Part shown: piece by piece, positions 10,261-54,200 of the stretch
How the letters are laid out: every line of letters begins with the position of its first letter
Numbering within the stretch: the first letter of the stretch is position 1
From: Tetraselmis striata
Taxonomy: Eukaryota; Chlorophyta; Chlorodendrophyceae; Chlorodendrales; Chlorodendraceae
Length of the DNA stretch: 64,000 bases
NCBI GenBank assembly: GCA_006384855.1
Contig: VCJN01002669.1
Location: 62,001 to 126,000 of the forward strand
Direction of reading: 5' to 3'
Made by a program: the position numbers and the translations under genes
Notes under the pieces: model-generated
What the model was told of the DNA's origin: nothing
Databases searched by the model: none
Seen by the model: the letters and a program-made list of their open reading frames with translations, nothing else

Positions 10261-11190
10261 CTATCGTACAGGTCGATCTTGGTTTGCCGCCTGAGACGTG
10301 CCAGCGCCAGCTTGGCGTTCCTGCTTAATGGCAGCTTCAGCGTCGCCTTGGTTATCAGCATCGCCGATGGCCGCCTGTTCCGTCCTTGCTGGTTGTTGCA
10401 GCTGCCGCGTGGCATCGTGGAGCTTGAAGCCAAACACCCTTGGCGTGTACTGCACAGATGGCTTCGGGGGTCGGAGGACCGGGTAAGTCATGAGGAGCAG
10501 GTGAGGAAATGTGGTCCCGAAGTAGGCGCCGTCGATGTTGCTGTGGTACTTGGAGCGCGGGTGATACACGTCCTCGCACTTGGGGCAGTAAATCTTCACT
10601 GAGCTGTTGCGCGGCACGTCAGCAAACCCTACCGGCAGACAGGGCTGCCCGTTGCAAAAGGCTCTTGGGCAGCGACCAAAATCCAGGTTCTTGTACTTCT
10701 CGAACATCGCAGCGAGGCCGCGCGTTGTCAGGATATAGCGGACGTGGATGAGGCCATACAGCAGCTCTGCGGCGCTTTCTATCATCTCGTGCTGCTCCTC
10801 TGTCAATGAGTCATCTGCTGGCACGTCCACATCCAGGATGAGGTCTAGAGCATAGTCATAATACGGGACCTGCGAGCTGAGGCCGCTCAGGTTGAAGTCG
10901 TCTTGCACATAGTCCTCGTCCACCTCGCAGAAAAACTCGTTACCCTTGAGAGAGCAGAACCATGAAATCCAGCTGGAGTCCTCCTCAGTCCCGCTGCCGT
11001 CGCTCTCATCTACCTCGCTATCAGACATCAGATAGTCCGACACCGCCGCTTGGCCGTCCGGGGGATACTTATCGGCGTCCCTGGAACCCTTATCAGTGCC
11101 GCCCGCAGCACTGCCGCTCGCCGCAACGCCCGAAACCCCGCCTGTGTTCGCAGCTGTATCGTAAGCCTGCCCGACGGCGGAAGGTATCAT
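10261..11190 (-). CDS. CKB: casein kinase 2 regulatory (beta) subunit
   Basis: Dimerising regulatory subunit of protein kinase CK2; it assembles the alpha2-beta2 holoenzyme and selects substrates in nucleus and cytosol. A single open frame of 309 residues. An acidic, low-complexity N-terminal extension of about 90 residues precedes the core, which begins [20 protein letters not shown]. The core keeps the acidic loop, the RYILTTRGL destruction-box region, the four zinc cysteines (CPRAFC and CPKC) and [15 protein letters not shown]. After FGFKLH a Q/A-rich tail of about 50 residues replaces the short animal tail. The ATG at 11190 is the first in frame after an upstream stop; an upstream coding exon cannot be excluded (AEEAKRAARG-like sequence near 11,450). 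The gene is intronless over its core although its neighbours are heavily spliced. Confidence 0.93.
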
Positions 11191-12371: not shown

Positions 12372-15300
12372 ATGCCCCGCCTTCCAAGCTTCCGGGCGGC
12401 GGGGAAGTCTGCGGCGCTTGCGCCGGTGTGCCTCAGCTTGCTGCTCGCGCTAGGCCTTGCTTGGGCGGCACTTGACCTTCGGCTGATGGCGTCCCGATTA
12501 AGGGAGGAGCTCGGCGCTTCAGAACGCGAGCGCGGCCGGCTCGTGCAAGTTGTCACGACGGCTGAGGCTGCGCACAGGCGTGCAGCACGCGAGCTGGCCG
12601 ACTGCCGGTTGCGCGAGGGGCGAGCGGCCTCCGAGGCCGCCTCGTTTGAGAGCGAAGCAAGGCGATACCACCAGGAGGCGACAAAGCACAAACAAATACA
12701 GCAGCACGCGGAGGAGATGCAGGCTGCATCACTCAAGGCTCAAACGGTGGAGCTGCAACAGGCGTGCGATCTTCGAGTCGCAAACAAGAGTGCCGCGTTG
12801 GAGCGCTGTCATTTGCAAGTCGACCAGCAAACAGAGGTGGGGTGATCAAGCAACCACCTGCGGATTGGTCCCAGCATATCGCACTGTGCGAGTGCTCTAT
12901 CCCAACACAGGCAGCCTGGCAGAACTCGGGACATGGGTTACCCGTGCTGTTTCGCTCGGCAGGAGGTGGCGCAGGTGAGTGCGTCGCTGGAGCAGCTGCA
13001 AAAGGCAATGCTGGAGAAGGTGGCCATCGTGAGTGAGATGAATAAAACGGCGCTGGCAGCGCAGCAGAGGGCTGACTCGTTGAGAGTGGCGGCAGCACGC
13101 CAGGTGATCAGCGGCCCCCCTTTGACGGCCTATGCCGGTGCTGCCGGAGCTTTGCATATGCATCGCCCCCGCATGCGTCATGCCATGCCCCTTGACATGG
13201 GGACTTTGCCTGCCAACGCTAGGGTGGCGACGCGGCGAGGCAGCCATGCCGCGAGACACTGGGCGCAGCCTCAGACGCCATGGGTCCTGCAATCTCGCGA
13301 GATGCGACGATGAAATCTCTCCGCGCGTTTGAAACGCTGGCAATGCGGCTCATGCACGGCGTGTCACAGCATAGTGGCAAGAAGGGCCCCTGGGGACACC
13401 TTCCCCCGGTGTACCCCAAGGAGCCCACCTTTGCAGCTCCATCCTGCCGAAGGATTGTCGCCTCTCAGTCAGTGAGTGCCCCTGATGTCCCGACAAGGCG
13501 CAGGTGCGCATATGGATGGCACTGCCGCCTGATGTCGCTGAACCATGCCGGCTTCCACGTGTCGGTGTGTCCAGGCCTTGCCTGTGGTTGCGATGAAAGA
13601 GTGGGCGTTCCAAGTGGATTCCGCGCAGACCGGCACTGGAATGGGCTATGCGCACATGGTACCCCCCCCCCCCCCCCCAGCGGCATTTGCGGTCACTACT
13701 CATCGCGGCCCTCGCCGTTGCCTGCCTGTCCCTGCGATGTCTTCTTGCTTGGCGGGTCAGTGCATTTCCCTCGCCATGCAGGCCATGCTGTCGTCACTCC
13801 CGCCTGCCTCGCCATGGGAGTGGATATTAGTCTGGCAAGCTGCCAACAAGGTGGAAGGAGGGGACGATCAAGTGCTCATGGTGCGCGCAACCTTTCGACA
13901 ACTCTCTCCATGGAACAAGCAGCTGTATTCCCGCTGCCTTTGAAACCCCCTCCCTGGGTATTTTCTCCCAGGGAAATATCCCGCCTGCTTGTTCCAGGCG
14001 GTATATTTCCCCCGCCTGCGGTACTGACCTCCGTGTGCCCCTGGGTCCCGATCCTTACCCCGCTTGCTGCTACCTAGGCGTCCTTCTCCCTGGATGGCCG
14101 TGCATGGACCGATCCGCTGAAGATGCCCGGCCTTCGGTCCAGCGGGTGCATATGGAGCCCCGTCCTGCACCGGACGGCCGCCATGGTATGCCGCAGCTAG
14201 CTCGACAGGCAGTCAGGCAGCTAGCTTGCGTTGGAGGTGTGACCATGGCGAGGTGGGTCGATGGCGTAGCACTGCGTGCCTGAGTTTACCGCTACCATGG
14301 GCTGGGCCCTGGCGCGCAGGTGTGGCTATTCTACACGGAGAGCGTGTCATGCCTCAGGCCTGCCAACAAGGTGGGAGCGCGCCCCCCGACATGTCCAAAT
14401 GGCGCGGCGCCGTCGGCAGTGGCTGCTGGCCTCTGGGAGGTGAATGTGGCGATCGCTGATGTGGCTGCAGGTGAGGGGGATTCCGCCTCGCTGGGCGCCC
14501 GGGGGCACGCTGAAGTACGTCCAGTCCAAGGACGGCGTCGTGTGGTCCTCTCCAGTCACTGTCCTGGAGCAGTGGCGAGACGGAGGCGTCCCCAAGGTCG
14601 CACATGCTCAGCCCTCAACCATGTCCCCCCCCCCCCCCCCCCAACCCATCCCCCCCATCTCACCCAACCCACCCACCTTCACCCGCTGCTATGTTCGCCA
14701 GATGTGTCCCATGGTCAGGACCTGAAAGATGCTGAATCTGTGCTGGTGGTGTGTTCCGTCTGCCTCCATTCCGAGCAGGTCATCGCCAACCAACTTGCGG
14801 TGCATCACTTCAACGGCACAGGTACGCTCGCCCACCGTTTCCCCCGGGCCAACACCCCCGAGTGCGTCACTTCGAGCACCGGCATCGACCTGACTTTCCT
14901 CTGCGGGGCGGGCTTGGGGCCCGCAGAGAGGTGGGCGCTGCCGTACTGGCAGGAGGTGCCCATCCTGCCGGAAACCACTCCCGGCTGTCCGTCGAAAGGA
15001 GAGAACTCGGCGGGCGTTCTGCTGAGCTCAAACAGAGGGAAGACGTGGAGAAAGTCGGCACAGGTGAAGATGGAGGAGGAGTACGGCCTGAACTGGCTGA
15101 TTGAGGGCACCGCCGTGCAGCTGGAGAACGGGACGCTGTTTCAGATGTTCCGCACCAAGACGGGCGGCATCTTCGGCAGCACGTCCAATGACGGGGGCGC
15201 CCATTGGGCGCAGGCCAAGCCGGTGGGCCTGCCAAACCCCAACAGCAAGGTCAACATGATCCGCATCAAGGTGCGCCCTGCCGCTACTAGCGTAGCCATT

Positions 15301-16189
15301 CACATGACGTATCCAGTTTGCATACGCGGGCGGCGTGGGCAGAGTCAAAGCGCCCGTGTTGCGCAGGGCGGCGGCGGCGGTGGGACGTCCGACATGCTGG
15401 CATTGGCCTATAATCACAATGAGACCATCGGGGCGAGGAACAACCTGCGGGTGGCGCTGTCTGCGGACATGGGACGGACCTGGCACATGGTGAGGCGGCC
15501 CCCGATCCAGGGTTGGGCGGTAAACCCTAATTAGGGTTTCAAAATCAAATCAAAAATCAAATTAGGGTTTGGTTTTAGGCTTAAAAAAGTTCAAAACCCC
15601 CCAGGTGAGGGTTATTTTGAGGCCCTTCAGTGTTGGGGCATATTGGGTGGGCAGTGGTCAGCAAAGCAGCTGAAGTCAGGGGAAGCTTACAGTTGCATTG
15701 GCAGACCAGGGACGGGTTAGAATTTTTTATCTAGGGCAAAGTCCTACTGATATTTTATCCCTGATTTTCTGACCTAGAATTCCAGTGTTTCAGAATATTA
15801 GGGTTTGCTAGGGCTGGCCGCCCAACAGGGAGTGCACTGCAATTGGAGACTCCCTCGCAGCTCGGCCTTTTGTTGCGGCCACTGCTTGGCCGCTGAGGTC
15901 TGCGTGAATGCACCACTGCCAGGTGGCCGAGCTGGAAGGCGTCCCGGAGGATGGCGCGATGTACCACTACCCGACAATGGCCCAGGACGGCTGCCGCCTG
16001 CTGATCGCCTACAGCGTGTACTACCAGCTGATCTCGAAGTGCAGCCTGTCCAACCCTGTCTGCCCTCCTGAGCGGCCCCGTGGCGCCGCCGGCATAAGGG
16101 TGGCTGAGCTGGACCTCGCGGCTGTGGACTTGACAGCAGAGACACTGATCCCGCCTACGGGAGTCAGGACGATTGTTGATGGCTTGTGA
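12372..16189 (+). CDS. membrane-anchored BNR/Asp-box sialidase with N-terminal coiled coil
   Basis: Exo-sialidase-type beta-propeller, expected to release a terminal sialic or related keto-sugar acid. Eleven exons join in phase: 12372-12836, 12963-13103, 13575-13658, 13782-13880, 14078-14185, 14320-14370, 14471-14596, 14779-14821, 14927-15270, 15367-15489 and 15923-16189. They total 1851 nt, or 616 residues. Residues about 1-35 are a type II anchor (LAPVCLSLLLALGLAWAAL). Residues about 36-200 are charged heptad coiled coil. The rest is the propeller with five Asp-boxes: SLDGRAW, SKDGVVW, SSNRGKTW, SNDGGAHW and SADMGRTW. Other family blocks are WSPVLH, VWLFYTES, LIEGTAVQLENG, GLPNPNSKVNMI and MYHYPTMAQ. 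The anchor suggests a Golgi or surface location with the propeller lumenal or outside. I did not identify an FRIP motif or the full arginine triad, so activity is not proven. Introns carry C tracts at 13,662 and 14,627. Confidence 0.9.
15490..15922 (+). other. last intron of the sialidase gene, with AAACCCTAA-like words
   Basis: This intron contains a short palindromic TAAACCCTAATTAGGGTTT region and further GGGTTT words at 15,520-15,570 in otherwise AT-rich DNA. It resembles degenerate interstitial telomere sequence. Confidence 0.5.
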
Positions 16190-17336: not shown

Positions 17337-17492
17337 AAAGGTCGCGCAGGCTGTTTTACACGGAGAAGACCCGAAATTGGAGCGAAAGCGTGGAGGGATA
17401 ACGGAGTAAGGGGGGCGCTGCGTGTGACGCAGCGAAACTGGAAGATGGCAGGCTCAGCTGTTACAGGGTACGGCTGCTTTCATGTCTACTCG

Positions 17493-17565
17493 TGTAAGGA
17501 TATGTACCACACAAATCCCCATGTGGGTACCCAGTGCCTGGTGCGTTTTGCGCAGTATCCTTACA
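17493..17565 (+). repeat. TRIM LTR 1
   Basis: 73 bp, starts TGTAAGGATA and ends TATCCTTACA. It is preceded by target-duplication copy ACTCG and followed by GT and a TGG primer-site-like sequence. Confidence 0.85.
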
Positions 17566-17592
17566 GTTGGTGCTTCTACGCACGCGGATCCG

Positions 17593-17602
17593 GGTTCGAT
17601 CC
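17593..17602 (+). promoter_or_regulatory. RNA polymerase III B-box-like site in the TRIM
   Basis: GGTTCGATCC matches the B-box core GGTTCGANNCC. It lies in a tRNA 3'-half-like stretch (a GTGC/GCAC hairpin, then a T-arm-like segment, then AGAACCA). The same site recurs 236 bp later. No good A-box was seen, so Pol III use is only possible. Confidence 0.4.
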
Positions 17603-17728
17603 CGCGGAGAACCATAAAATATGATATGATATCCCGCAATGTTGGACGACCCGCGATCCGCGGATCGCCACCGAATCCAAGCCGAAACGTTGCTGGAGGA
17701 GGTCCTCCATCCTATGGGGGGGGTGGAG

Positions 17729-17801
17729 TGTAAGGATATGTACCACACAAATCCCCATGTGGGTACCCAGTGCCTGGTGCGTTTTGCGCAGTATCCTTAC
17801 A
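17729..17801 (+). repeat. TRIM LTR 2 (shared middle LTR)
   Basis: Same 73-bp sequence, preceded by the purine tract ending TGGGGGGGGTGGAG. It serves as right LTR of the first unit and left LTR of the second. Confidence 0.85.
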
Positions 17802-17964
17802 GTTGGTGCTTCTACGCACGCGGATCCGGGTTCGATCCCGCGGAGAACCATAAAATATGATATGATATCCCGCAATGTTGGACGACCCGCGATCCGCGGA
17901 TCGCCACCGAATCCAAGCCGAAACGTTGCTGGAGGAGGTCCTCCATCCTATGGGGGGGGTGGAG

Positions 17965-18037
17965 TGTAAGGATATGTACCACACAAATCCCCATGTGGGT
18001 ACCCAGTGCCTGGTGCGTTTTGCGCAGTATCCTTACA
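17965..18037 (+). repeat. TRIM LTR 3
   Basis: Same 73-bp sequence, followed directly by the second ACTCG target-duplication copy. Confidence 0.85.
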
Positions 18038-20639: not shown

Positions 20640-22530
20640 GCTAGTCTGTGCACCGCAAGTGCACTTCGCAAGCCTCGCCTCCATCCGCGTCGGAACCGGT
20701 AGTAAGTGTTGTTGTGTGCGCACATCGTGACAACATTACACGGTGGCAATTGCAATTATTAGCGGTGGGTAATGTGAAGGCGTTTTCGAAATCGACAGAG
20801 AATGAGGCGGTGCTGGCGGAGTGCATTGGCGGTGCATAGAATAGCGTGTTGCTGGGGTTTTGGCTGCATCGGACGCCGTATTCCCACCCATCCGGCACGG
20901 AATGTCCGGTTTTCACACATTTGTGTGTTAATAAAGCAGTGTGAATATTACGCGTCTTTTACGCCGGGTGGATGGGCATCCGGCGTCCGATGCACCCCAA
21001 TTATTTGCAGCACGCTACTCTACGCACCCCCAACGCACTCCGCAAGCCTCGCCTCCATCCGCGTCGGAACCGGTAGTAAGTGTTGTTGTGTGCGCACATC
21101 GTGACAACATTACACGGTGGCAATTGCAATTAGCGGTTAATGTGAAGGCGTTTTCGAAATCGACAGAGAATGTGGCGGTGCTGGCGGAGTGCATTGGCGG
21201 TGCACAGAATAGCGTGTTGCTGGGGTTTTGGCTGCATCGGACGCCGTATTCCCACCCATCCGGCACGGAATGTCCGGTTTTCACACATTTGTGTGTTAAT
21301 AAAGTGTGAATATTACGCGTCTTTTACGCCGGGTGGGTGGGCATCCGGCGTCCGATGCACCCCAATTATTTGCAGCACGCTACTCTACGCACCCCCAACG
21401 CACTCCGCAAGCCTCGCCTCCATCCGCGTCGGAACCGGTAGTAAGTGTTGTTGTGTGCGCACATCGTGACAACATTACACGGTGGCAATTGCAATTAGCG
21501 GTGGACAATGTGAAGGCGTTCTCGAAATCGACAGAGAATGAGGCGGTGCTGGCGGAGTGCATTGGCGGTGCACAGAATAGCGTGTTGCTGGGGTTTTGGC
21601 TGCATCGGACGCCGTATTCCCACCCATCCGGCACGGAATGTCCGGTTTTCACACATTTGTGTGTTAATAAAGCAGTGTGAATATTACGCGTCTTTAAGCC
21701 GGGTGGATGGGCATCCGGCGTCCGATGCACCCCAATTATTTGCAGCACGCTACTCTACGCACCCCCAACGCACTCCGCAAGCCTCGCCTCCATCCGCGTC
21801 GGAACCGGTAGTAAGTGTTGTTGTGTGCGCACATCGTGACAACATTACACGGTGGCAATTGCAATTAGCGGTTAATGTGAAGGCGTTTTCGAAATCGACA
21901 GAGAATGTGGCGGTGCTGGCGGAGTGCATTGGCGGTGCACAGAATAGCGTGTTGCTGGGGTTTTGGCTGCATCGGACGCCGTATTCCCACCCATCCGGCA
22001 CGGAATGTCCGGTTTTCACACATTTGTGTGTTAATAAAGTGTGAATATTACGCGTCTTTTACGCCGGGTGGGTGGGCATCCGGCGTCCGATGCACCCCAA
22101 TTATTTGCAGCACGCTACTCTACGCACCCCCAACGCACTCCGCAAGCCTCGCCTCCATCCGCGTCGGAACCGGTAGTAAGTGTTGTTGTGTGCGCACATC
22201 GTGACAACATTACACGGTGGCAATTGCAATTAGCGGTGGGTAATGTGAAGGCGTTTTCGAAATCGACAGAGAATGAGGCGGTGCTGGCGGAGTGCATTGG
22301 CGGTGCACAGAATAGCGTGTTGCTGGGGTTTTGGCTGCATCGGACGCCGTATTCCCACCCATCCGGCACGGAATGTCCGGTTTTCACACATTTGCGTGTG
22401 AATATATATAGTGTGAATATTACGTAGGCGTCTTTTACGCTGGGTGGATGGGCATCCGGCGTCCGATGCACCCCGAATCTCACCAACACGCTACTCTACG
22501 CACCCCCAACGCACTCCGCCAGCCCCGCCT
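20640..22530 (+). repeat. dimeric satellite, about 367-bp monomer, five copies
   Basis: A unit of about 365-369 bp repeats about five times. It runs from AGCCTCGCCTCCATCCGCGT through GGTGGCAATTGCAATTAGCG, a gene-like TGGCGGAGTGCATTGGCGG and ACACATTTGTGTGTTAATAAA to TACGCACCCCCAACGCACTC. Copies 2 and 4 share one set of variants (GGTTAATGTG, AATGTGGCGG, AATAAAGTGTG) and copies 1, 3 and 5 another (GGTGG..AATGTG, AATGAGGCGG, AAGCAGTGTG). So the true period is a dimer of about 735 bp. Long frames run through it only because the unit lacks stops; I see no protein signature. Confidence 0.9.
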
Positions 22531-22624
22531 CTTTCCGCGCAGGTCCTACGTTCCATTGTATGTATATACATACGTACATGTACTGCTCCGAAACCAGCCC
22601 AAACTTAATGAGTGCACAAGTGTA

Positions 22625-41600: not shown

Positions 41601-43093
41601 TCCAGCTGAACATGCGAAAAACATACACCTGTCCACAAAATTAAGCTGTCTGGGTGCATCTGTACACTACTCCATGAATTAAGTTTCATTAATCATTCGA
41701 CGTCCCGGGTCACCGCTGACACACCCACCTCCGCCCTCCTTTTTGCCCCCCCCCCCCCCCCCCCCGCCCCCTCTTTTTCGGCCCCTAACCGTTGGTCGCG
41801 CTTCCCCGCTCCGTGACTCCGCCCGCTGCTGCCGGACAGGACCCGTCGAATCGCGTGATGCCGTCGCAGCGTGAGATCTGCTCCGCCCGCCGGTACGACC
41901 TGCACCACGCCATCCTTTACAACGGAGGCTACCGCACCGTCGCGCGGGAGCTGCACCGCCCGCCGTCCTACCCTCGCGCCCGCATCCAGGTAAGCGGCGG
42001 GCTGCTCGGCAACTGGGTGCGAGTCGCACGGACAAGTCCCGGGATGCGTCCCACCTGGCCTGCGGTGGTCTTCGCCAGGGTTCACTTCGCGGTGAATCAC
42101 GCTGAATTCCGGCTAGGCCATCAGTCCAATGGTCACAGCTGCGCGGCACTTATGCTTGTCTGGCGGCTTGATCCCTGAATCCTGGCTTAATGCCTGGTTT
42201 CTGGCCCTTCATTCCATCCCAAGTCTGTTCCGCTTAATTCGGCTTGATTAATTCCACTGAATTAAGTACTGCCTTCTCATGCAACCTCCCATGCCCACTT
42301 CCGCGCAATGCCCCCCCCCCCCCCCCCCCCCTACCGGGCTGCTCCTTCTTCCGCTGCATCCGCGCCCAACGCCCCTCTGCGCTGCCCTCATCACGCCAGA
42401 GCTTGAAGGAGCTCGCAAAGGAGCTCCAGAAAATCATGGAGGAGGAGGGGCTCAAGGGGCGCGTCCCCCCGCCCTCGCTACTCTGCGAGCTCGGCATGTA
42501 GGTCGCCGTCCCCGCTGGGGCGCCTCTCAAGCTGGTTGGGCCCGGGCGGGGATGGCGGGGGAATCGCGCCATCCCTGAGTGCCTTTCCGCGCGGTTGTTA
42601 CTTCCCTTCAGGCAGCACCTCCTGCGGGATATCTACAACCTGGGCGGCTACCCGTCCGTCGTGGAGCGCATGAACGAGGAGCTGGGGCTGCAGGTGCGCA
42701 GCCGCCGCCGGGCGGGTCACTGGGACAACGTGGACCACCTCTGCCACGAGCTCCGCAAGTTCATGGGCCTCCCGGCGACCCCCCCGGAGCCGGAGGATGA
42801 GCCGTTTGACTGCTATCTTCCAACGCACAGGTGCGCGGGCGGCGCTTGAGCCGGTCAGTGAAGTCTCCCCGTGGCTTTGTGTCACGGACAGTCCCAACCG
42901 ACACTGGGATTGATGCGCCGAAAGTGCCAACGTTTCAACATGATTGCCGTGGCATGCATGCAGGCAGCTCATCCAAGCCGGGCGGCCAGACTTGCGTTAC
43001 GGGCTTCAGAAGCATGGGCAGCAAAAAGTCGCAAAGTTGCTGCGGGTCAAAATAAATCCACGTGGGCGGCCTGCTAAAAGCGATAGCAACTAG
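38700..43093 (+). CDS. protein with four copies of a small GR-DL / GYWDN domain and a WW-like segment
   Basis: Function not recognised. A basic A/G/R-rich N-terminus, possibly a transit peptide, leads to a module near 38,800-39,060 (LVGWSVRLLGETGAQSGWCG ... FIRRVDTRARMLYVQ). Domain copy 1 is RMPTQQHLAALGRNDLTSII then RKPAGYWDNLDTLDQEI (39,250-39,690). A WW-like segment (ELYDVEEDNPYYYNQ, ITGAVQVHEPELP) spans about 39,830-40,100. Copy 2 is at 41,858-41,988 (RRYDLHHAILYNGGYRTVAR). Copy 3 is at 42,392-42,830 (RVPPPSLLCELG, LLRDIYNLGGYPSVVERM, RRRAGHWDNVDHLCHELRKF). Copy 4 is at 42,964-43,093 (RQLIQAGRPDLRYGLQKHG), ending in TAG. The pattern P-x4-L-x3-GR-x-DL-x3-I-x3-GG-x3-VA then R-x3-GYWDN-x3-L-x2-E is shared. 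The 40.3-41.8 kb part would be a long intron; two genes rather than one is possible. The start codon is not fixed. Confidence 0.55.
40628..41178 (+). repeat. duplicated AT-rich block, copy A
   Basis: Shares long stretches with 41,325-41,768: GAAGACCAATCCTTAT, TTTCACACGAATTAATA, GGGACATTTTGTCA, GTGGCGTACCTGCAGGCGCC, ACTACTCCATGAATTAAG, and a trailing C tract. Internally it repeats a unit of about 100-117 bp three times, each with TGTGCCATTCCGTCTATT and CACACGAATTAATA. Confidence 0.85.
41325..41768 (+). repeat. duplicated AT-rich block, copy B
   Basis: Second copy of the block at 40,628-41,178, shorter by one internal unit and ending in the same C tract. The duplication lies between domain copies 1 and 2 of the surrounding gene. 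Confidence 0.85.
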
Positions 43094-43154
43094 CGCGTGC
43101 CGTTTCCGCGCGCTGATTCTGCATGTTTCTCTTTATTGATTATAATCCGCAACG

Positions 43155-43200
43155 ACATGTCCGTGTGTGTGTATGTGTGTGTGTGTGTGTGTGTGCGATA
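43155..43200. repeat. (GT)n microsatellite
   Basis: GT-rich tract just 3' of the multi-domain gene. Confidence 0.85.
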
Positions 43201-43484
43201 TATAGTGTCGTGGCGCGCAAAAAAACGCTTTTCAATGATCATCGCACGACATTCATGTTCCAAACACTGCACTGTCGGCATGCAGCATGCCGTCCACATC
43301 AGCCGCTGGACAGGGCGGGAATATTTCGTGCTTCTTTTCTATCCATGTAGAGGCAATAGCAACCAGCTCAGTGGGTTTATCAGCGCTGCTGATTCGAAAG
43401 CATGATATAACGTCAAATAGCGAAATGTAGTTGCCGTCCCTCCCTTGTTATTAACAACCACAGTAGAATATGATGACTTCGTCT

Positions 43485-43504
43485 TTAGGGTTTTAGGGTT
43501 TTAG
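43485..43504 (+). repeat. interstitial TTTTAGGG repeat
   Basis: Two and a half units of TTTTAGGG, the Chlamydomonas-type telomere repeat, 45 bp before the palindrome array. Confidence 0.75.
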
Positions 43505-43549
43505 CCATATGTATCGTCATTTTATTCATCCCCTCAATAAACTGTTATC

Positions 43550-44225
43550 TATATGTTAAGACCCATGTACGAAAATGCCCTATGTATACACAGGTCATGG
43601 TCAGAATGCCCTGTGTACATACAGGGCATTTAGGTGCCCTGTGTATACACAGGGCATAACCTTGTATGCCATGTGTACACATAGGTCACTTGCATTGACC
43701 TGTGTACACACAGGTCATTTTGGCCATGACCTGTGTATACACAGGTCACTTGAAATCATCTTGTGTACACACAGGTCATAGAAAATGACCCAAGTGCGAA
43801 CATCGCTGCCTTGTTTGTACACAGGTCATCTGACATATGACCCAAGTACATGTTTTCACCCATGCCATTTCACAGATGCCCCATGTGCAAACAAGGTGTC
43901 GGGTTTTAGGTATCATTGGTGACCCGTGTATACACGGGTCGATACCGTAATGACCTGTGTGTACACGGGTCATGATCACTTTGACCTGTTTGTACACGGG
44001 TCATAAAAGTGACCTGTGTATACACGGGTCAAAGTAAACATGGCCCGTGTACACACAGGTCATTACGGTATCGACTGTGTATACACAGGCAAAATAATGA
44101 CCTGTGTGTACACAGGTCAATAAAAAATATGACCTGTGTATAAACAGGTCAAATTGATGACCTGTGTATACACAGAGCGACCTGTGTGTACACAGGGCAT
44201 TTTCGTACCTGGGTCTTAACATATA
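43550..44225. repeat. array of about twenty 20-bp palindromes within a terminal inverted repeat
   Basis: About 20 units of the form GACCTGTGTATACACAGGTC, many perfect palindromes, are spaced by 8-20 bp so that unit centres lie roughly 33 bp apart. Arms vary between GACCTG, GCCCTG and GACCCG, usually with matching changes on the other arm. The whole is closed by inverted copies of TATATGTTAAGACCCA and the following GTACGAAAATGCCCT (about 45 bp, three mismatches), at 43550 and 44225. A spacer GATACCGTAATG (43941-43952) recurs inverted at 44061-44072. Reading frames through it (CVHTGH-like) are by-products of the repeat. No host-gene similarity was seen. It may be a foldback/MITE-like element or a protein-binding array. 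Confidence 0.9.
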
Positions 44226-45647
44226 CAAGACTACAGCTCTTGCCTGCACACAATGCCCGTGATGATACGAACGGATGAGATTGTGTAATGGCAATCCATA
44301 CAGCTAGCCATAATCCGCGATCCGGCGACCTAATTGTATGCTTCTAAAGATGTAGGTAATTTGCACATATTAATATGATGAGGCCGACCCACATCTGCGC
44401 CGTGACCTCACATTCGCCACACCTTTCAGCATCCTGCAGTAAAGTCGCAGCAGCGCAACTAATCATTCTTATTAATACGAAAGTAGCATATATATACATA
44501 TTAACATATACACCTGCTACATTCGGCGATAAATATTTAGTAATGAGTGATATTCAGGCTGTTTCGCAAATTGTGGCGGATCTTGCAAAATTGTGCTGGT
44601 AATTTTAGTTGACCCTTCACTGACCGAATAAACAATGATAAGTTTCTGGCAAAATCACTAAAAAATACATATGGGTGTTCAATTAAGGCGCCGATTCTCA
44701 GCATTGCGGGAGTTCATCTAAGTAACTTGAAATACTCCGTTATCGTCTCGTCACCATCATGCATCCGCAGCGCATGGTGGCGGGGGCGAGGCGGCGGCGG
44801 AGTGAGGGGGAGGGGGAAGGCGGGGAAGGCCCGTCGATCATCAGGCGCCTACAGTGGAGCTAGTTGTTTGACTGCGTCATATCGGGTACGACTGGCCCGA
44901 CATCGGTCGTCAGAACAACCGCCGACATGCCTACTCCAGGACCTAATAGATATCACTTTACAGTGACACTGCCTCTACAATGAACATTCGAACCCCCCCC
45001 CCCCCCCCCTGCTTTCACTGCAGGGGTACATTGATTATAGGGATAAGAAGTGATGTACTAGCAATCTTGTCTATGGCCCCTCCCCCCTGTTCAGTATCGG
45101 GGCGTACATTATAGATATTGTCAGTGTACTTATTAGGGCCAGCAAGCGCGTGCCGCCGGGCCGCCCCCGCGCTGGGAGACGATTAAAACCCGCCTCGGTG
45201 AGAATCGGCCGCCCTCGAATTGAACACTCGGATTTTCTGGAAATCGCGCAAAGCATAAGTTTCACTGAAAATACCATACGACAATTTTGCCACCTCCATA
45301 TCGTACATATCGATTCAGCAGAACCACAATCGCGGGAAAACCCCTTTTACATTACTACTAATGAATACATTGCATGACCGCGCCACCATTTCTTGCTTAG
45401 GCGTCCTCGAGCATACGGGTATAGATAATGCGGGGCAACAAAGTAAAAAGTTCGCCCCATGCCATTGCGGCGGAAGCCACCCCAGCCTCTTGCGCCAACT
45501 GCAGATCGTAGGTCTGGCACATTCCTTAGATCATCGTGTCATTTGGACCCCGAATAAGCATGGCTAATAAGAAATGTCTATCAACCACGTGAAGTGATAA
45601 ACCCGTGCCGGGATACGCCCGGGTCGCCCGGTCAAAATTGCCGTCAT

Positions 45648-46096: not shown

Positions 46097-47230
46097 ATGC
46101 CTCACCCGCCGCCCAGATCGCGTAGCTGCCCTCAACCCCCTCCCACGCGACGTCACCGTTATGCCCGGGCTGTGGCGGGTCGCTTGTATCCGGCGGGGCG
46201 CCGCGCGATGTCTGCGCCTTCCGCCGATGGTGCGGCAGAACGCGCCGTTGACCCCGGGTCGCCGCCGCCCCCCAGTACATCGTCCAGTATATCAGGCAGC
46301 CCCGGCGCATCGCGTGCGGCGGGAGCGTCGCCCGCGGCAACACCGTCCACCGGCAGTGCACCCGACGCCACCCAGCCAAGGCCGAGCCCGCCCGCGACTG
46401 ACGCCCCGCCGGCTCCCACGTACGCCCAGGCGGTGAGCCGGTCGTCGAGTCCCGAGTCCGCGACGGGCGCGGCAGGTACGACCGGCGCGCGCGCTGCCTC
46501 GCCTGTGTCGTCGCCTCGCCGCAGTACTTTCAGCAGTATTTCGGGGCCCGGCGCGTCACAGCGCGATCACGGTGGCGCTCCGACCGGCCAGGAAGTCTCC
46601 GAGCGGCCCCAGCCGCGGCCGCGCGGCGGCAACCGCGGCATAGCGCTCACCGGCCTCGATGCTCTCGCCCGCCTGCATTCCAGGCTACACGACAGCGGGC
46701 CGGCGCGGCGGGGCGTAGCACCGGCAGCGGCTTGGACAGTCGCCGACGCGCTTTCAGTCGCTGGCGTCGCCGCGGGCGCCGCATGGGCGCCGAGGATTGA
46801 CGCCGCAGCCAGGTCGCTCCAGCCCGCCCGCGTCAGGCACCACCCGGCCGATGTGTTGGCTTTCACCGAGGTCGCCGCCGCGTGGCTAGCCAAGGCGCGC
46901 GCCGTGTTGGCCGAGCGGCACCGCCGTCGGGGGGCGCGCCGCGCCGGTGGAGTTGGACAATCGTCGGTGCTGCCGTCGCCCGCATTGCCGTCCGTCGCTG
47001 CGTTCCGGGGCGTCGCAGCGCCCCCGGTTGTTGCCCCCACGCCGCCAGAGGTGGGCGCACCGGCCGGCCACCCCGGTAGCCAGGCCTCACGGGCTCGGTA
47101 TCCGCCCCCCCCCTACTCGCCCATCTCCAGCCGGCGACGGGGTGGGGTGGGGCGCGGTGGACCACCTCTCCGACGTGGACATGGTGCACATGCCGGCGGA
47201 GATGTCCATGGAGACGGCGGTGCCGATTGA
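46097..47230 (+). CDS. retrotransposon ORF1, low-complexity protein
   Basis: 377 codons from the ATG at 46,097. The first 200 residues are P/S/A/T-rich and presumably disordered. A helical region follows (GLDALARLHSRLHDSG, DVLAFTEVAAAWLAKARAVL), then an R-rich stretch that could bind nucleic acid. It overlaps ORF2 by 284 bp in a different register. A nine-C run at 47105-47113 lies in the overlap, near where the plausible coding sense passes from this frame to ORF2. Confidence 0.6.
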   Translation: MPHPPPRSRSCPQPPPTRRHRYARAVAGRLYPAGRRAMSAPSADGAAERAVDPGSPPPPSTSSSISGSPGASRAAGASPAATPSTGSAPDATQPRPSPPATDAPPAPTYAQAVSRSSSPESATGAAGTTGARAASPVSSPRRSTFSSISGPGASQRDHGGAPTGQEVSERPQPRPRGGNRGIALTGLDALARLHSRLHDSGPARRGVAPAAAWTVADALSVAGVAAGAAWAPRIDAAARSLQPARVRHHPADVLAFTEVAAAWLAKARAVLAERHRRRGARRAGGVGQSSVLPSPALPSVAAFRGVAAPPVVAPTPPEVGAPAGHPGSQASRARYPPPPYSPISSRRRGGVGRGGPPLRRGHGAHAGGDVHGDGGAD

Positions 47231-50200
47231 CTTTCAAGAAGCGTGGGCAGAGGCACAACGCTGCGTGAATGAGCGGGTGATGGCGGCGATGGAGGCCAAT
47301 GACCCCGTGGTGTTGGATAGGGCGCTTAAATGGAAGTACCTGTTGCCACAATTGTTGCTTAGGGCCCCGAGCCGAGGCGGACGGCGGCGGCTACAAGCCT
47401 TGGCGTGGCGCTTCCGCGCTTTCGCGGAGAGGCGCATGACCGAACTCGTGCGCTCATGGGACGACGCGCGCACTGAGGCGTTCTACGCCGGACATGCCCG
47501 CCAGCGTCGGACGGACGCCGATCTCTTTGCGGCGCTGCTCGTGGGCACCGCGGACACCGTTGTGGCGTTGGTGGAGGACGGAGAGCTCTCCCGAGCGGCG
47601 GGCCGACTATCTTCTAAGGGTATGGGCGACTTGTCCGATCCTGCTATCCTCGCCCAGCTGCGTGACAAGCACCCGTCCCGTAGCCACCCGATCCCAGACG
47701 CCGCGTATGACATTCCGGTGGACGAGGCCGCCCTGACGGTCGACATGCGCGTGCCGTACCAGCAACTCAAGCAGCACGTGGCGGCGGGGCCCTCAGGCAT
47801 GCGCAACGAGTATCTCCGCTGCTTGGTGGGCGAATACGCCCCGGCGTCCGGGCCCGCGGCAGTCCGCGCCATGTCGGAGGTTGCCTCCATGTATCTCCAA
47901 GGTCGCCTGCCCGGGTGGTTCAACCGGCTCTTCGCCTCTGCTAGGCTCGTGGCACCTGTCAAGAAGCTATGCGAGGGGAGGGCCCCGGACGTGCGGCCTG
48001 TGGCAGTCGGGGAGGCGGAGCGGCGCGCAGCAGAGCGGGCAGTGGTTGACAACATGAAGGAGGCATACGTGTCGGTGCTCGCTCCATCTCAGCTCGGCGT
48101 TGGCATTCCCGCGGGCGACTCTGTGCTCATCCACGGCGTCCGGCTCATCGCCGAGAAGCTTGGCCCACGTGCCGTCATCGTCCACACAGACCTTCGCAAC
48201 GCTTACAACGAAGCATGGCGCCGCACCATCATCCAGCGCCACATCGATTGCTCTCCACTACACCCTGTCATCCCTGCGCTCCTAGCCTCCCTCTCCACGG
48301 ACTCGTATCTTGTCGTGGACGACCGGTCCGCCCCTCTGCGGTCGGAGGACGGCGTGCAACAGGGCGCACCTTTGGCCACGACTTCCTTTTGCGTCGCGAT
48401 TCACCCCGAGGTGCAGCAGTGTGATACCACGTTGGAGGTCAATGACGGGGCGGCGCGCTTCAACGCCGACGATGGAATTTTGGTGGGCCTTCCGGAGCAC
48501 GTTTGGCCGGCTCTTCACGCCTTCCGCACGTCCATCAAGGCGTCCGTGGGGCTTGAGGTGCGCTTCGACAAGATGCAGGCGTACAGCGCAGACATGGAGG
48601 CGGCGCGGCGTGAGGCTCCGGCCGACATCGAGTGGCCAGAGCTAGATGGCCATCACGGCATCGCGGTCCTCAACGTGCCGCTCGGATCGCCAGAGTATGT
48701 GCAGGCGTACATGCGCGGCAAGGCGGAGGAGCTACGAGAGGAGGTGGACGCTAGCCTGAGCAAGCTTCTGTCTGCCAAGCCCAGCCGTCGGTACACCCAC
48801 GCCTTGCATCACCACGCATGGGCCCTGCTCAAGCATTGCATGCAACACAAGGCGGGGTATTGGCTCCGCAATTGTCTTCCGTCCGAGGTGGAGGCCTTTG
48901 CAGAGGCGGTGGATGCCACCATCCTCGCGGCGGTCGAACGGGTGCTAGGGGTCTCTTTTGATCCCTCCACGTACGGCACCGACACCAATCCGGTGGTCAC
49001 CGATTTCTTGGCGGAGCTTTTGCACGACCCCGACCCCATGGCAGCGGAGGTAGCTACCTTGAGCGAGGATGCAGTGGCCAGGGCGCGCAGCAGGCTTCAC
49101 CTCCCCACTCGATTGAAGGGAGCTGGCATCCGCCGCATGGCTACCGTTCGTGATGCCGCCTTCATCGGCTGCATGAACGCCATCCTCCCAAGGTTCATGA
49201 CTAAGAACTCCGGCACCAACACCCCCACCCCTGGTTTCTTCGACCCACAGCTCGGGTCCGTACTTGGCCGAGGCAGCTTCAACGCAAATTCTTCCGCCCG
49301 CCAGTATGACCACTTCCTCAACGATGCTCATGGGTCGGACAGCTACGCCGCGGAGATGCGCGAGGCGTGGGGCCGCCTCCAAGCGGCTACTGCTGGCCAT
49401 CTCGGCGACGCAGATGCACGCCAGATGGAGCGGGAAGTGGAGGCTGCGTCGGGCTCGCAAAAGGAGCTGACGGCATTTCTAGACCAGGCCAACAACTCTC
49501 GGCTTCGAAATGAGGTGTGCGCTCTCCCTGCCACATGTAGGGAACGGATCTTGTTCAACCAGCTCGACGCGGCGTCAGGCATGTGGACAGTGGCCATCCC
49601 CACCGCGCGGACAGCCATGACTCCGCATGAGCTGCGGGAGGTCGCTGCCGGGTACTTCTTTCTGCCTAGCCCGTGCTTGGCCCCGGTGGTTGGGTGCCAG
49701 ATTATTCTGCCCTCGACGGAGCACAACCCCGTCATTGTTGATCTATACGGCGACGCGCTCATGAACCTCCCGGCGCCTGGAGACGCTCACTGGCGTGTAC
49801 AGCACGACGCTATCGCAGATGCCTTCCGCGATCATTGTGTTCACGACCTAGGTATCGCGGTACGGCGGGAGGTGGATGACTTGTTCCAGCAGGCAGTGCC
49901 TCTCGGCAACACCGTACCCCGGGATGAACTCAAGGACCTAGTGCCGGACGCAGAGCTCTCCCTTCCGGCGTTCAACATCGTGACCGGGAGCTATGATCCC
50001 CGGAGCTTGAAGTCCACGCTGCTAGAGTTCAAGACTATGCGGTACGGGGTCAAGTACACTTCAGTGCCCCGGGCCACAGCTGTGGATCGGTTTGAGCGCT
50101 CCCTGTTGGGCGACATACAACGGGGGTTGGCTACGCGGGACGCGGCGTGGCACAACACAGAGCCCGGACACAAGGGTCCTCTTCGAGACATCCTGGATAT

Positions 50201-50573
50201 GTCGGAGTACACGGGCATGGTCTTCGGCACAGTGGGTGAGGTGAGCAAGGGGGTGCACCGCACAGTGCGTGGTATCGCATGCTTGGCTGCGGACCGGGGT
50301 GCCCTCTCATCGCGGGGCACTCGGTGCATCACCCGGGCTCACCAGGAGGCCTTGCTCGCAAGAGATTTCCTCGGGGTCCTGAGCTTGGTAGCCGCTCGAG
50401 AGCGTGCTCGCTGCCTCATCAGACGGCGCAGATTCGTCTCCCATCCCGTTGCTGAAGCTGCACAGCACGTCCGAGGATCACCCACACACACACGTGCTCG
50501 CGTGGCCCGGACTCTGAACCGTGTGCGCATCACTCATCCATCCCGCCTTATGCGGGATGCGGGCCGCTTTTAG
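46947..50573 (+). CDS. retrotransposon ORF2: reverse transcriptase plus C-terminal nuclease-like domain
   Basis: Open frame of 1208 codons; convincing protein starts near 47,140 (DHLSDVDMVHMPAEM). RT blocks: AAGPSGMRNEYLRCL, then RPVAVGEAERR, motif A HTDLRNAYNEAW (catalytic Asp about residue 415), motif B DGVQQGAPL, motif C FNADDGILVG (Asp-Asp at about residues 508-509). Motif C has Asn where Phe/Tyr usually precedes the x-D-D. Near the C-terminus, YDPRSLKSTLLEFKTMRYGV carries a D..ExK arrangement like restriction-type nucleases of target-primed LINEs. It then ends in an arginine-rich tail. The true start, by frameshift from ORF1 or an internal ATG, is unresolved. Confidence 0.88.
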   Translation: MELDNRRCCRRPHCRPSLRSGASQRPRLLPPRRQRWAHRPATPVARPHGLGIRPPPTRPSPAGDGVGWGAVDHLSDVDMVHMPAEMSMETAVPIDFQEAWAEAQRCVNERVMAAMEANDPVVLDRALKWKYLLPQLLLRAPSRGGRRRLQALAWRFRAFAERRMTELVRSWDDARTEAFYAGHARQRRTDADLFAALLVGTADTVVALVEDGELSRAAGRLSSKGMGDLSDPAILAQLRDKHPSRSHPIPDAAYDIPVDEAALTVDMRVPYQQLKQHVAAGPSGMRNEYLRCLVGEYAPASGPAAVRAMSEVASMYLQGRLPGWFNRLFASARLVAPVKKLCEGRAPDVRPVAVGEAERRAAERAVVDNMKEAYVSVLAPSQLGVGIPAGDSVLIHGVRLIAEKLGPRAVIVHTDLRNAYNEAWRRTIIQRHIDCSPLHPVIPALLASLSTDSYLVVDDRSAPLRSEDGVQQGAPLATTSFCVAIHPEVQQCDTTLEVNDGAARFNADDGILVGLPEHVWPALHAFRTSIKASVGLEVRFDKMQAYSADMEAARREAPADIEWPELDGHHGIAVLNVPLGSPEYVQAYMRGKAEELREEVDASLSKLLSAKPSRRYTHALHHHAWALLKHCMQHKAGYWLRNCLPSEVEAFAEAVDATILAAVERVLGVSFDPSTYGTDTNPVVTDFLAELLHDPDPMAAEVATLSEDAVARARSRLHLPTRLKGAGIRRMATVRDAAFIGCMNAILPRFMTKNSGTNTPTPGFFDPQLGSVLGRGSFNANSSARQYDHFLNDAHGSDSYAAEMREAWGRLQAATAGHLGDADARQMEREVEAASGSQKELTAFLDQANNSRLRNEVCALPATCRERILFNQLDAASGMWTVAIPTARTAMTPHELREVAAGYFFLPSPCLAPVVGCQIILPSTEHNPVIVDLYGDALMNLPAPGDAHWRVQHDAIADAFRDHCVHDLGIAVRREVDDLFQQAVPLGNTVPRDELKDLVPDAELSLPAFNIVTGSYDPRSLKSTLLEFKTMRYGVKYTSVPRATAVDRFERSLLGDIQRGLATRDAAWHNTEPGHKGPLRDILDMSEYTGMVFGTVGEVSKGVHRTVRGIACLAADRGALSSRGTRCITRAHQEALLARDFLGVLSLVAARERARCLIRRRRFVSHPVAEAAQHVRGSPTHTRARVARTLNRVRITHPSRLMRDAGRF

Positions 50574-51261: not shown

Positions 51262-54200
51262 ATGCCTACTATCAGTACGGGTACCGGTGCTAAACACTGC
51301 CCTGCTTGCACCAAACCAGTCCCCAGTTTCGCGCGCCTGGGGGGAGACGCCCTCCGCGCCGTGTGCTCGAGCTCGCTGCTGCGGAAGGCGGACGTGTCGA
51401 TACTGCCAAGTGAAGACGCCCCTAGCGTCGTGTCGGAGCAGGAGCTGGCGGAGTTCCGCGAAAACGTCCGCGAATTTTCGCGCCGTGTGATCGCGCCTCA
51501 CGCAGCGACGGTACGGCCACCTTACTTTTCGGCGAGTACCATGCGTCTTCAGTGGCGCGTGACAGTGCATATACACATGCTCCCGGTTTTATCAGCAGCA
51601 AGGAAGGGCTGACGTGTACGTGCCCTGGACTTTGGTGGACAGATCGACAAAGCGAACTCGTTTCCAGCAGATGTCGACCTGTGGAGAGAGATGGGCGACT
51701 TCGGTCTGCACGGTGTGTGCATAGCCAAAGGGCGACCGGCTGCTTGCAGCAGCCCGCAGCCCCCAGCGCCCCGCTGCCGATGGCTGAAGCACAACGCAAC
51801 TCTCCCCCAACCGTCCGCAGGTGTCACGGTGCCAGCGGAATATGGCGGGCTGCAGCTTGGATACCGAGCCCACTGCATTGCCATGGAGGTTGTCGCAGCG
51901 AACGACTTTTATTGTTACTGCCTCCTCACTGGTCGCCCATGCCCCCCCCCCCCCCCCTCGGAAGCGCTGACCGACCTCGGCGCATTGCGCAGGAGTTGAG
52001 CCGCTGCTCGGGCTCTGTGGCGCTGAGCTATGGCGCGCACAGCAATCTGTGCATCAACCAGCTGGTGAGGAACGCCAACCCGGCTCAGCTTGAGAAGCAT
52101 TTGCCCAAGCTTCTGTCAGGTACGCCATCGTCTGCCGCCCTCATACGTGCGTCGCCACATGCACGTCCAGGTGCCCCGCCGTATGCGAGCACAGCATCCC
52201 TCCCCACCCTCCCCCGACCCAGCATGCACCTAGGCTGGCGCGGGGGCCAGCATGCACTGACCAAGGGTGCCCATGTCATTTCAGGGGAGCACGTGGGAGC
52301 TCTCTCCATCAGCGAGCCCAACTCCGGCTCCGATGCCGTCTCCATGCAATGCCGCGCCGCACCGCGCGGCGGGTCATTCGTCCTCAACGGCACAAAGATG
52401 TGGTGCGCATGTCGCCCGCCTTGCGCACCAGGGTTTTTAGGGTTTCTAAGTTTTTGGTTTTAGGTTTAAACCATATAAACCTAATACAAACCAGAACCCT
52501 GAAACCTTGCGGACCACATTATGTCGCCACAAAGCACGCACAGCCTACGGACGCCGGCCAATAGGCAACTGATATTGGAATTGGAATTTATTGTACAAAA
52601 TTGTCCCTGCTTAGTCTTTGATGCCAAGCAAGCGAACTTTCCAATACAAACTCGCATAGGGTCCGCTAGTAAATGTGTATAGCTCCCTGAAGGCCAACCC
52701 AACACGCATTGGGCATTGGTTTCTTTGGGACGTGCTGATTGGGAGTGCAGCTTTACATCGCTTTTCCCGCGCCGCCTGCATCGGCTGCCCCGCGTACCTC
52801 CCACAGCGTAGCACGTAGGGGCATGCACAAGGGCCGCCGTACCAACAATCGGTTGCATCGTTTTCTGTCCGCTACCGCCGATGGGGTGCCACGCCCCGTG
52901 CACCGGAGTGGGCGCTGACATGCCGGCGGTGCTCCTCGCAGGTGTACCAACGGACCCACGGTGCGCCGTGCCTACAACCACTTCCGCGCCCGCTGATGGC
53001 ATGCAGCTTGCAGGGTTTAGGGTTTGATGATTATAACAATTACAACAATACTGTGACACTCCCTTTATAATGAACAGTCGGCCCTCCTCCTCCTCCCTGC
53101 GGAGGAAGGTTTAGGAGGTTTAGGTGGGTTCATTACTATAGGGGGGTTCAATACTATAGAGGTAGCGTCCCTGTCTTCATCACAATAATAATGCCGCCCA
53201 TCAAGAGGCACGGGGACTAACCCAGCGGGTTCCCGCAGGCCAGCGTTCTGATTGTGTATGCCAAGACGGAGCCCGAAGCCGGCGCGCATGGCATCACGGC
53301 GTTCATCGTGGAGAAGGGGATGCCGGGCTTCAGGTTGACTGCGGCGGATGTTTGCCAATGACCTCTTTGTCCGTGCATGTGATCTCGTGATTCTGCGGCC
53401 AGACATTTGTGCCGCATCACCGTTCCCACCGTAACCACCAGTGTGTGTGTGTCCACAGCACTGCGCAGAAACTGGATAAACTCGGGATGCGGGGAAGCGA
53501 CACCTGCGAGCTGGTTTTCGACAACTGCGAGGTAACGATTCCCCAATCTCATTAAATCTCGCGGATAGTCTCCCTTATATAATCCCACTACCGGGCCTTC
53601 CTGCCGGTGCCGCACGTGTGTCATCCTCTGCCGCGCTTCCAGCTCCTACGGGTAGTGAGCACCGGCCAAATTGAATGTTCGGTGCGGCGACGGCGACGAC
53701 GGTAGCTGACCGGGAGCTGACAGTGTTTTATCTTTGATAGTTAAGAGCCGCAGACAATTTCCGCCCAACAACAGTCAAAGCTCATGTTGGGTGTTCAGCA
53801 AGAACAATGCAAGCAGGAAGCTGCCCCGCCTGGCAGAGGTCAAACTTGCACAAGACTGTAGCGGAACTACCGCGGATGTTTTTGTAGGTTGCGTTCAGAT
53901 CCATTAGGAGGCTTATACTAAGGGATCTCATCCTAAATGGACGGTTAATCATTGAGTCATTTAATGAATCGTCTTGCATGATTCATTAAATGCGTCTTGC
54001 TCAATCCTATTCCGTTTGATTCCGTGTGCATGATAGTGTACCACTTACTCTAGTAAGTATACCTAATGCCCTAGGAGGTGTCTCCGTTGTGATGGATCGG
54101 CCTGGCTCTGGGGCGACAGGTCCCGGCGGAGAATGTGCTCGGCGAGGTGAACAAGGGGGTGTACGTCATGATGAGCGGCCTGGACTACGAGAGGCTGGTG

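Follow-up and report, generated by a model that had tools for sequence, protein, structure and literature searches.

Positions 43550–44225 of the analysed window, a 64,000-nt stretch of contig VCJN01002669.1 from the alga Tetraselmis striata, are packed with short palindromes lying between inverted ends. What kind of sequence is this, and what are the palindromes for? Taken together, the evidence makes it probable that the locus is a deleted Ginger2-like element moved in trans, whose palindromes are putative sites for a transposase dimer. Integrase-type DNA transposons are related to the integrases of LTR retrotransposons. To our knowledge, the way in which their transposases recognize transposon ends has been little described.

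The array contains 18 clear 20-bp palindromes together with five degenerate units, a density of roughly one per 30 bp (Table 1). Measured against the arm consensus GACCTGTGT-NN-ACACAGGTC, clear units agree in at least 13 of 18 positions and degenerate units in 10–12. From start to start, the 23 units are spaced 17–43 bp apart, with 16 of the 22 distances falling at 27–32 bp. All nine arm pairs are matched in 5 of the 18 clear units, and eight pairs are matched in 5 others. When up to three mismatches are allowed, GACCTGTGTNTACACAGGTC matches 30 times across the two strands of the window, always within 43577–44198, whereas 100 dinucleotide shuffles contain none. The inverted ends (43550–43596 and 44179–44225) are 47 nt long and 94% complementary with the duplication included; the outermost TATA on each side is the target duplication, and the repeat inside the element measures 43 nt. 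Farther inside lies a second inverted pair (43938–44003 and 44010–44075), with 66-nt arms that are 89% complementary. The original prediction, made from the sequence of the window, had described about twenty 20-bp palindromes, terminal inverted repeats of about 45 bp, and a spacer that recurs inverted, and all three descriptions hold. Folded as a single strand, the block reaches −225 kcal/mol compared with a shuffle mean of −95 (z −19, 20 shuffles). In reverse orientation, the window copy matches other copies at 65–68% over most of its length. A structured RNA gene is ruled out, with no Rfam match at the gathering level in 43000–44800.

Table 1. Coordinates of the element and its parts, as positions in the window.
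Feature	Position	Strand	Remark
Left target site duplication, TATA	43550–43553		
Non-autonomous Ginger2-like element, 668 bp, ends TGTTAAGACCC..GGGTCTTAACA	43554–44221		End pattern recurs in the genome
Left terminal inverted repeat, reaching into the first clear palindrome	43554–43596	+	94% complementarity to the right repeat, duplication included
First palindrome array (8 clear units), from one transposon end	43577–43827		Aligns to an end of L055
Clear unit starts, first array	43577, 43608, 43636, 43668, 43697, 43728, 43758, 43808		Degenerate unit at 43787
Degenerate stretch, three poor units (43787, 43847, 43878)	43787–43897		Inside the part aligning to long copies
Deletion junction, 30 bp including palindrome 43921–43940	43911–43940		Matches the long element at both ends
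Second palindrome array (10 clear units), from the other transposon end	43921–44198		Aligns to an end of L055
Clear unit starts, second array	43921, 43952, 43983, 44011, 44042, 44072, 44099, 44131, 44159, 44179		
Right terminal inverted repeat, reaching into the last clear palindrome	44179–44221	-	Complementarity to the left repeat
Right target site duplication, TATA	44222–44225		

The genome to which the window belongs (224 Mb, 2903 contigs) was searched with the block. The search gave 141 first-look candidates, and all 40 that were scored matched over 590 or more of 696 bases, with 86–100% identity. The terminal 26 bp, with up to three mismatches, recur 189 times (95 forward and 94 reverse matches), and the reversed-pattern control has no match. 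Copies have sharp ends, and the DNA that flanks them varies from one copy to another. The block is one copy of a DNA element that is non-coding and dispersed, has inverted ends, and is flanked by a target duplication of 4 bp. Its recurrence at many sites with differing flanks makes an assembly artefact unlikely. A tandem satellite is ruled out by the dispersal of the copies and by their target site duplications (TSDs), in line with the earlier judgement that this was not an ordinary satellite.

The duplication was assessed in 38 hand-picked copies with both ends visible. This set leaves out L007, whose right end is rearranged; L012 and L016, which nearly duplicate L011 and L008; L017, which lacks its left end; L048 and L065, which are complex; L060 and L068, which are nested; the single-end loci; and repeat fetches of the same copies (e.g., L057, L071, and L079). 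L061 has several right ends, of which the outermost was taken. An exact 4-bp duplication lies immediately outside TGTTAAG..CTTAACA in 25 of the 38 copies, and a further 11 have a duplication with a one-base mismatch. Of the exact duplications, 20 are TATA, and the remaining five are CAAT, TATG, TATT, TATC, and CATA, one each. Because TATA is very common, re-pairing the flanks yields as many as 16.8 exact duplications on average, compared with the 25 observed; for the non-TATA class, 5 are observed against 0.32 expected. Neither 25 exact nor 5 non-TATA exact duplications were reached in any of 20000 flank shuffles. The outside context is R-TATA-Y, with R at −5 in 34 of 38 copies and Y at +5 in 36 of 38. 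By our own reading of the paired copies, TGTNR..YNACA termini are present in 37 of the 38 copies on the left and in 35 on the right, a share biased upwards because the copies were located by near-matches to the end. A piggyBac-like reading of the ends, based on the TTAA within TGTTAAGA, is ruled out by the position of the duplication, since the 4-bp repeat, which differs between copies, sits outside TG..CA.

Some pairs of family ends lie 2–4.7 kb apart in the genome. The long copies hold pieces of an apparently interrupted integrase-type transposase gene, including an H2C2 zinc-binding domain, D-D-E motifs, and cysteine-rich C-terminal segments. Three families, A, B, and C, are distinguished below. 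An exon-joined family A reading, assembled from pieces of L054, scores 25.7 bits against the Pfam Integrase_H2C2 model (PF17921; cut-off 25.5). The joined reading of family C stays under that cut-off at 21.9 bits, and the joined reading of family B has no listed match to the model. The D, D, and E residues are colinear in an alignment of the three families. The rve model scores under its cut-off in all joined readings (17.3 vs. 32.6 for family B), the best matches among solved structures (PDB) are retroviral integrase cores at a weak E of 0.09, and the unjoined integrase pieces have no Pfam match above a cut-off. A fragment carrying the DDE motif has 112 matches in the genome, and each of the 12 loci retrieved for the best of these bears one family end with 0–2 edits, although these loci are not all independent because at least two are copies already chosen by their ends. 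Another fragment, bearing the H2C2 domain and the first D, has 85 matches, and L055 (C193) is not among them. In L053, a long family A copy, interior open reading frames resemble a nested Copia-type retroelement by our own reading, with no Pfam match above a cut-off.

The relationship between the short and long forms is seen in L055, an integrase-bearing copy of 3628 bp. Positions 43554–43940 of the window align to one of its ends (3236–3628) at 92.9%, and positions 43911–44221 align to the other (1–312) at 93.6%. The two alignments overlap by 30 bp at one palindrome of the window copy. Because the window copy consists of both palindrome-rich ends of the long element, joined at one palindrome, it is an internal-deletion derivative of longer elements that bear integrase fragments. 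Many copies share a short structure like that of the window copy. Like MITEs, the element is short, non-coding, and present in many copies, with inverted ends, a TSD, and an origin by internal deletion from a family with transposase fragments. Unlike MITEs, it is made up almost wholly of palindromic sites. A transposon can thus shrink to little beyond its ends and yet persist in many copies.

Ginger2/Tdd transposons offer the closest comparison. In the main text of their description, these elements terminate in TGTNR and have inverted ends of about 45 bp or longer, a 4-bp (or 5-bp) TSD, an AT-rich RTATAY target, and an integrase-type transposase with H2C2 and DDE features, and they include short non-autonomous derivatives such as the 252-bp Ginger2-1N1_NV (Bao et al., 2010; PMC2836005). 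The element studied here resembles them in its termini, long inverted ends, 4-bp TSD, RTATAY target, H2C2 domain, and short non-autonomous derivatives. It differs in having both ends densely packed with 20-bp palindromes and in carrying extra cysteine-rich C-terminal segments. With a DDE core recognized by motif only, it is best filed as Ginger2-like. The strings “palindrom” and “subterminal” are absent from the main text of Bao et al. (2010; PMC2836005). Nor were palindrome or subterminal arrays found in the mainly open-access literature covered on such elements or on algae.

Repeats near transposon ends have precedents in other systems. Ac/Ds and En/Spm-type elements carry subterminal repeats that bind transposase. 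They share with the present element many short repeats close to both ends, but here the repeats are full dyad-symmetric palindromes, belong to an integrase-type element, and are candidate binding sites only. Foldback elements of the FB/Tetris type have ends that are long, repetitive, and self-complementary, as is the case here. They differ from the present element, which has an integrase-type parent, a 4-bp TSD, and a short, defined terminal repeat. For the present element, derivation by deletion from an integrase-encoding Ginger2-like transposon is a better description than membership of the foldback class.

The long copies also show where the palindromes are placed. Arrays are present at both ends, with 13 and 8 units in L054 and 11 and 10 units in L055, compared with shuffle means of 1.1–1.2. 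The interior of L054 is above its shuffles as well (13 units vs. a mean of 6.2 and a maximum of 11), whereas palindromes are at chance in the interiors examined in families B and C. Family B comprises the inner elements of L060 and L068, which are 89.5–89.8% identical to each other at the DNA level in two long aligned stretches. Its units are of the GGTCCATGT-NN-ACATGGACC type (e.g., GGTCCATGTGTACATGGAGC), and the L060 integrase is 52% identical to that of family A. Family C comprises L083 and L084 and has units of the GACTTGTTT-GC-AAACAAGTC type (e.g., GACTTGTTTGCAAACAAGTT); the integrase reading of L084 is 72% identical to family A. The terminal motif TGTTAAGAYCC adjoining TATA is common to family B and to the single observed family C end (L084). 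The plan of the arrays is also common to the families, with palindromes of about 20 bp, two central bases, a spacing of about 30 bp, and a location near the ends. The palindrome excess is large in family A and in the left array of the family B element of L060 (7 units vs. a shuffle maximum of 2). It is small elsewhere, with 4 and 4 units in the right arrays of family B (shuffle maxima 3), 3 units in the left array of L068 (shuffle maximum 3), and 6 and 5 units in the family C arrays (shuffle maximum 4), counts that include some windows falling between units. Three related families in one genome that have one terminal motif and different palindromes form a natural series for mapping transposase recognition.

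Because the sister families share a plan and a terminal motif but differ in their palindromes, the palindromes are interpreted as candidate family-specific recognition sites for a transposase dimer. Under this model, the element would move by cut and paste with a transposase supplied in trans. TGTTAAGAYCC would be the end at which cleavage and strand transfer take place, and the palindromes of about 20 bp are predicted to be recognized by the transposase dimer. Many such sites near both ends may load transposase and draw the ends together. Dense sites could also account for the multiplication of a 668-bp remnant made almost wholly of ends. In the sister families, the palindromes would have changed along with the transposase, with length, the two-base free centre, and spacing held constant. 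Of the possibilities raised in the original prediction (a foldback transposon, a recombination or replication structure, or a binding array for a dimeric protein), a mobile sequence with long inverted ends has been upheld and the dimer array is the best reading, but the foldback assignment has been set aside. The likeness of AGGTCA to nuclear-receptor half-sites is probably a coincidence.

The dimer could instead be a host protein, such as a transcription factor, silencer, or replication factor, with the arrays serving to recruit it or acting as promoters. Densely packed palindromes are a typical feature of regulatory sites, and the arrays flank the transposase gene on both sides, which makes a promoter role possible. 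Such a host factor is nonetheless unlikely, as the occurrence of three palindromes in three families of one genome is a better fit to a factor that diverges with the element.

The original prediction also held that a change in one arm is often matched in the other, as if symmetry were kept by selection or by copying through a hairpin. Arm changes were analysed in an alignment of 29 rows, comprising the window copy and 28 others. The alignment omits L001 (the window copy itself), L044 and L039 (repeat fetches, wrong-orientation matches), L012 (a near-duplicate of L011), L060 (nested insertion), and L052 and L065 (low identity or partial). Seventeen units entered the unit tests, with the unit at 44072 (only 3 rows) and the five degenerate units set aside. 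Matched double changes number 16, compared with 17.3 expected (sd 3.3) when arms are re-paired among units within a copy, and 3525 of 5000 such re-pairings reach 16. Likewise, arm pairs match in 138 of 153 cases in the unit consensuses and in 137.5 with shuffled arms. A weaker control, with shifted partner positions and all 23 units, gave 18 matched changes against 2–7, but this excess disappears when the hypermutability of the fourth position is taken into account. Compensatory evolution is rejected on the strength of the within-copy re-pairing and the consensus-arm shuffling. The symmetry of the arms is not kept up unit by unit, and copying through a hairpin is unsupported because matched arm changes are at chance, the outcome that the original prediction had named as counting against it.

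The impression of matched arm changes is due to a C>A hotspot at YCTG. Fifteen of the 16 matched double changes fall at the fourth arm position, all of them C>A, and 21.7% of cells at this position are off the majority compared with 3.6% in spacers. The hotspot (YCTG to YATG) accounts for changes in 181 of 845 CCTG cells in the element. C>A is also raised in the long-copy interior (L055 vs. other long copies), at 23 of 432 CCTG compared with 113 of 15669 for all C. The hotspot is therefore at least partly a sequence-context mutation effect rather than one of palindromes alone. No clear clock-like behaviour is seen for the hotspot (Spearman 0.29, p 0.12). Arm divergence is 5.7% with positions 4 and 6 included and 3.0% without them, against 3.6% in spacers (p 0.053 for the latter comparison). 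Those two positions aside, the arms show no clear excess of conservation over the spacers, so these copies do not demonstrate purifying selection on their palindromes.

The near-equality of arm and spacer divergence would also be expected if the palindromes were a passive by-product, that is, a motif without function multiplied by slippage or unequal exchange. Whole-unit gains and losses between copies, seen among the matches listed, and the small unit excess in some sister arrays point the same way. Against this, the architecture recurs in families whose integrase readings are 52–72% identical, and interiors are at chance for families B and C and modestly above it in L054; a passive origin is as improbable as a host factor. 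Slightly less credible still is a foldback role, in which the palindromes act as hairpins or cruciforms in replication or recombination, with hairpin-templated repair keeping the arms symmetrical, rather than as protein sites: single-strand folding is very strong, the element is largely self-complementary, and the deletion junction falls at a palindrome, but matched changes at chance reveal no arm-to-arm templating, and a pure hairpin role would not need palindromes that differ by family next to a common terminal motif.

Family B elements are nested in the family A copies L060 (555–5018) and L068 (555–4441). In both cases, the family B element lies in the centre of the same family A palindrome, GTGTATA[B]TATACAC, with TATA as the TSD. 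The two nested elements are oppositely oriented and the outer left flanks of L060 and L068 differ, so these are two separate insertions. L007 has the outer flank and the rearranged right end of L060, and its palindrome is uninterrupted at that site, which suggests the empty site from before the L060 insertion. The palindrome centre, GTATAC, fits the RTATAY target. A more speculative extension, which is rather doubtful at present, is that, in a group of integrase-type transposons, transposase and dense arrays of 20-bp palindromes co-evolve by family, the palindrome centre (GTATAC) coinciding with the RTATAY target of the group, so that the arrays would serve as loading platforms and also as landing pads on which sister elements insert. 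A preference for insertion into palindrome centres is not claimed, two cases being too few.

Other repeats and open frames are present in the window. A short interstitial run of a TTTTAGGG-type repeat lies directly upstream of the element (43486–43504), and telomere-type patterns, with 5 matches (control 0) and 3 matches (control 1), point to no clear telomere type for the genome. An open frame of 1208 aa at 46947–50573 (+) has a weak RVT_1 match (23.0 bits vs. a cut-off of 29.6) and may be a further mobile element, lying 2.7 kb away from the array. Tandem arrays occupy 20661–22539 (368-bp units, 5.1 copies, 95% matches) and 17492–18037 (236-bp units, 2.3 copies, 100% matches). Open frames match, above the Pfam cut-off, a casein kinase II regulatory subunit at 10261–11190 (-) (253.6 bits), BNR_2 at 14320–15534 (+) (54.5 bits), and an acyl-CoA dehydrogenase N-terminal domain at 51552–52463 (+) (33.7 bits).
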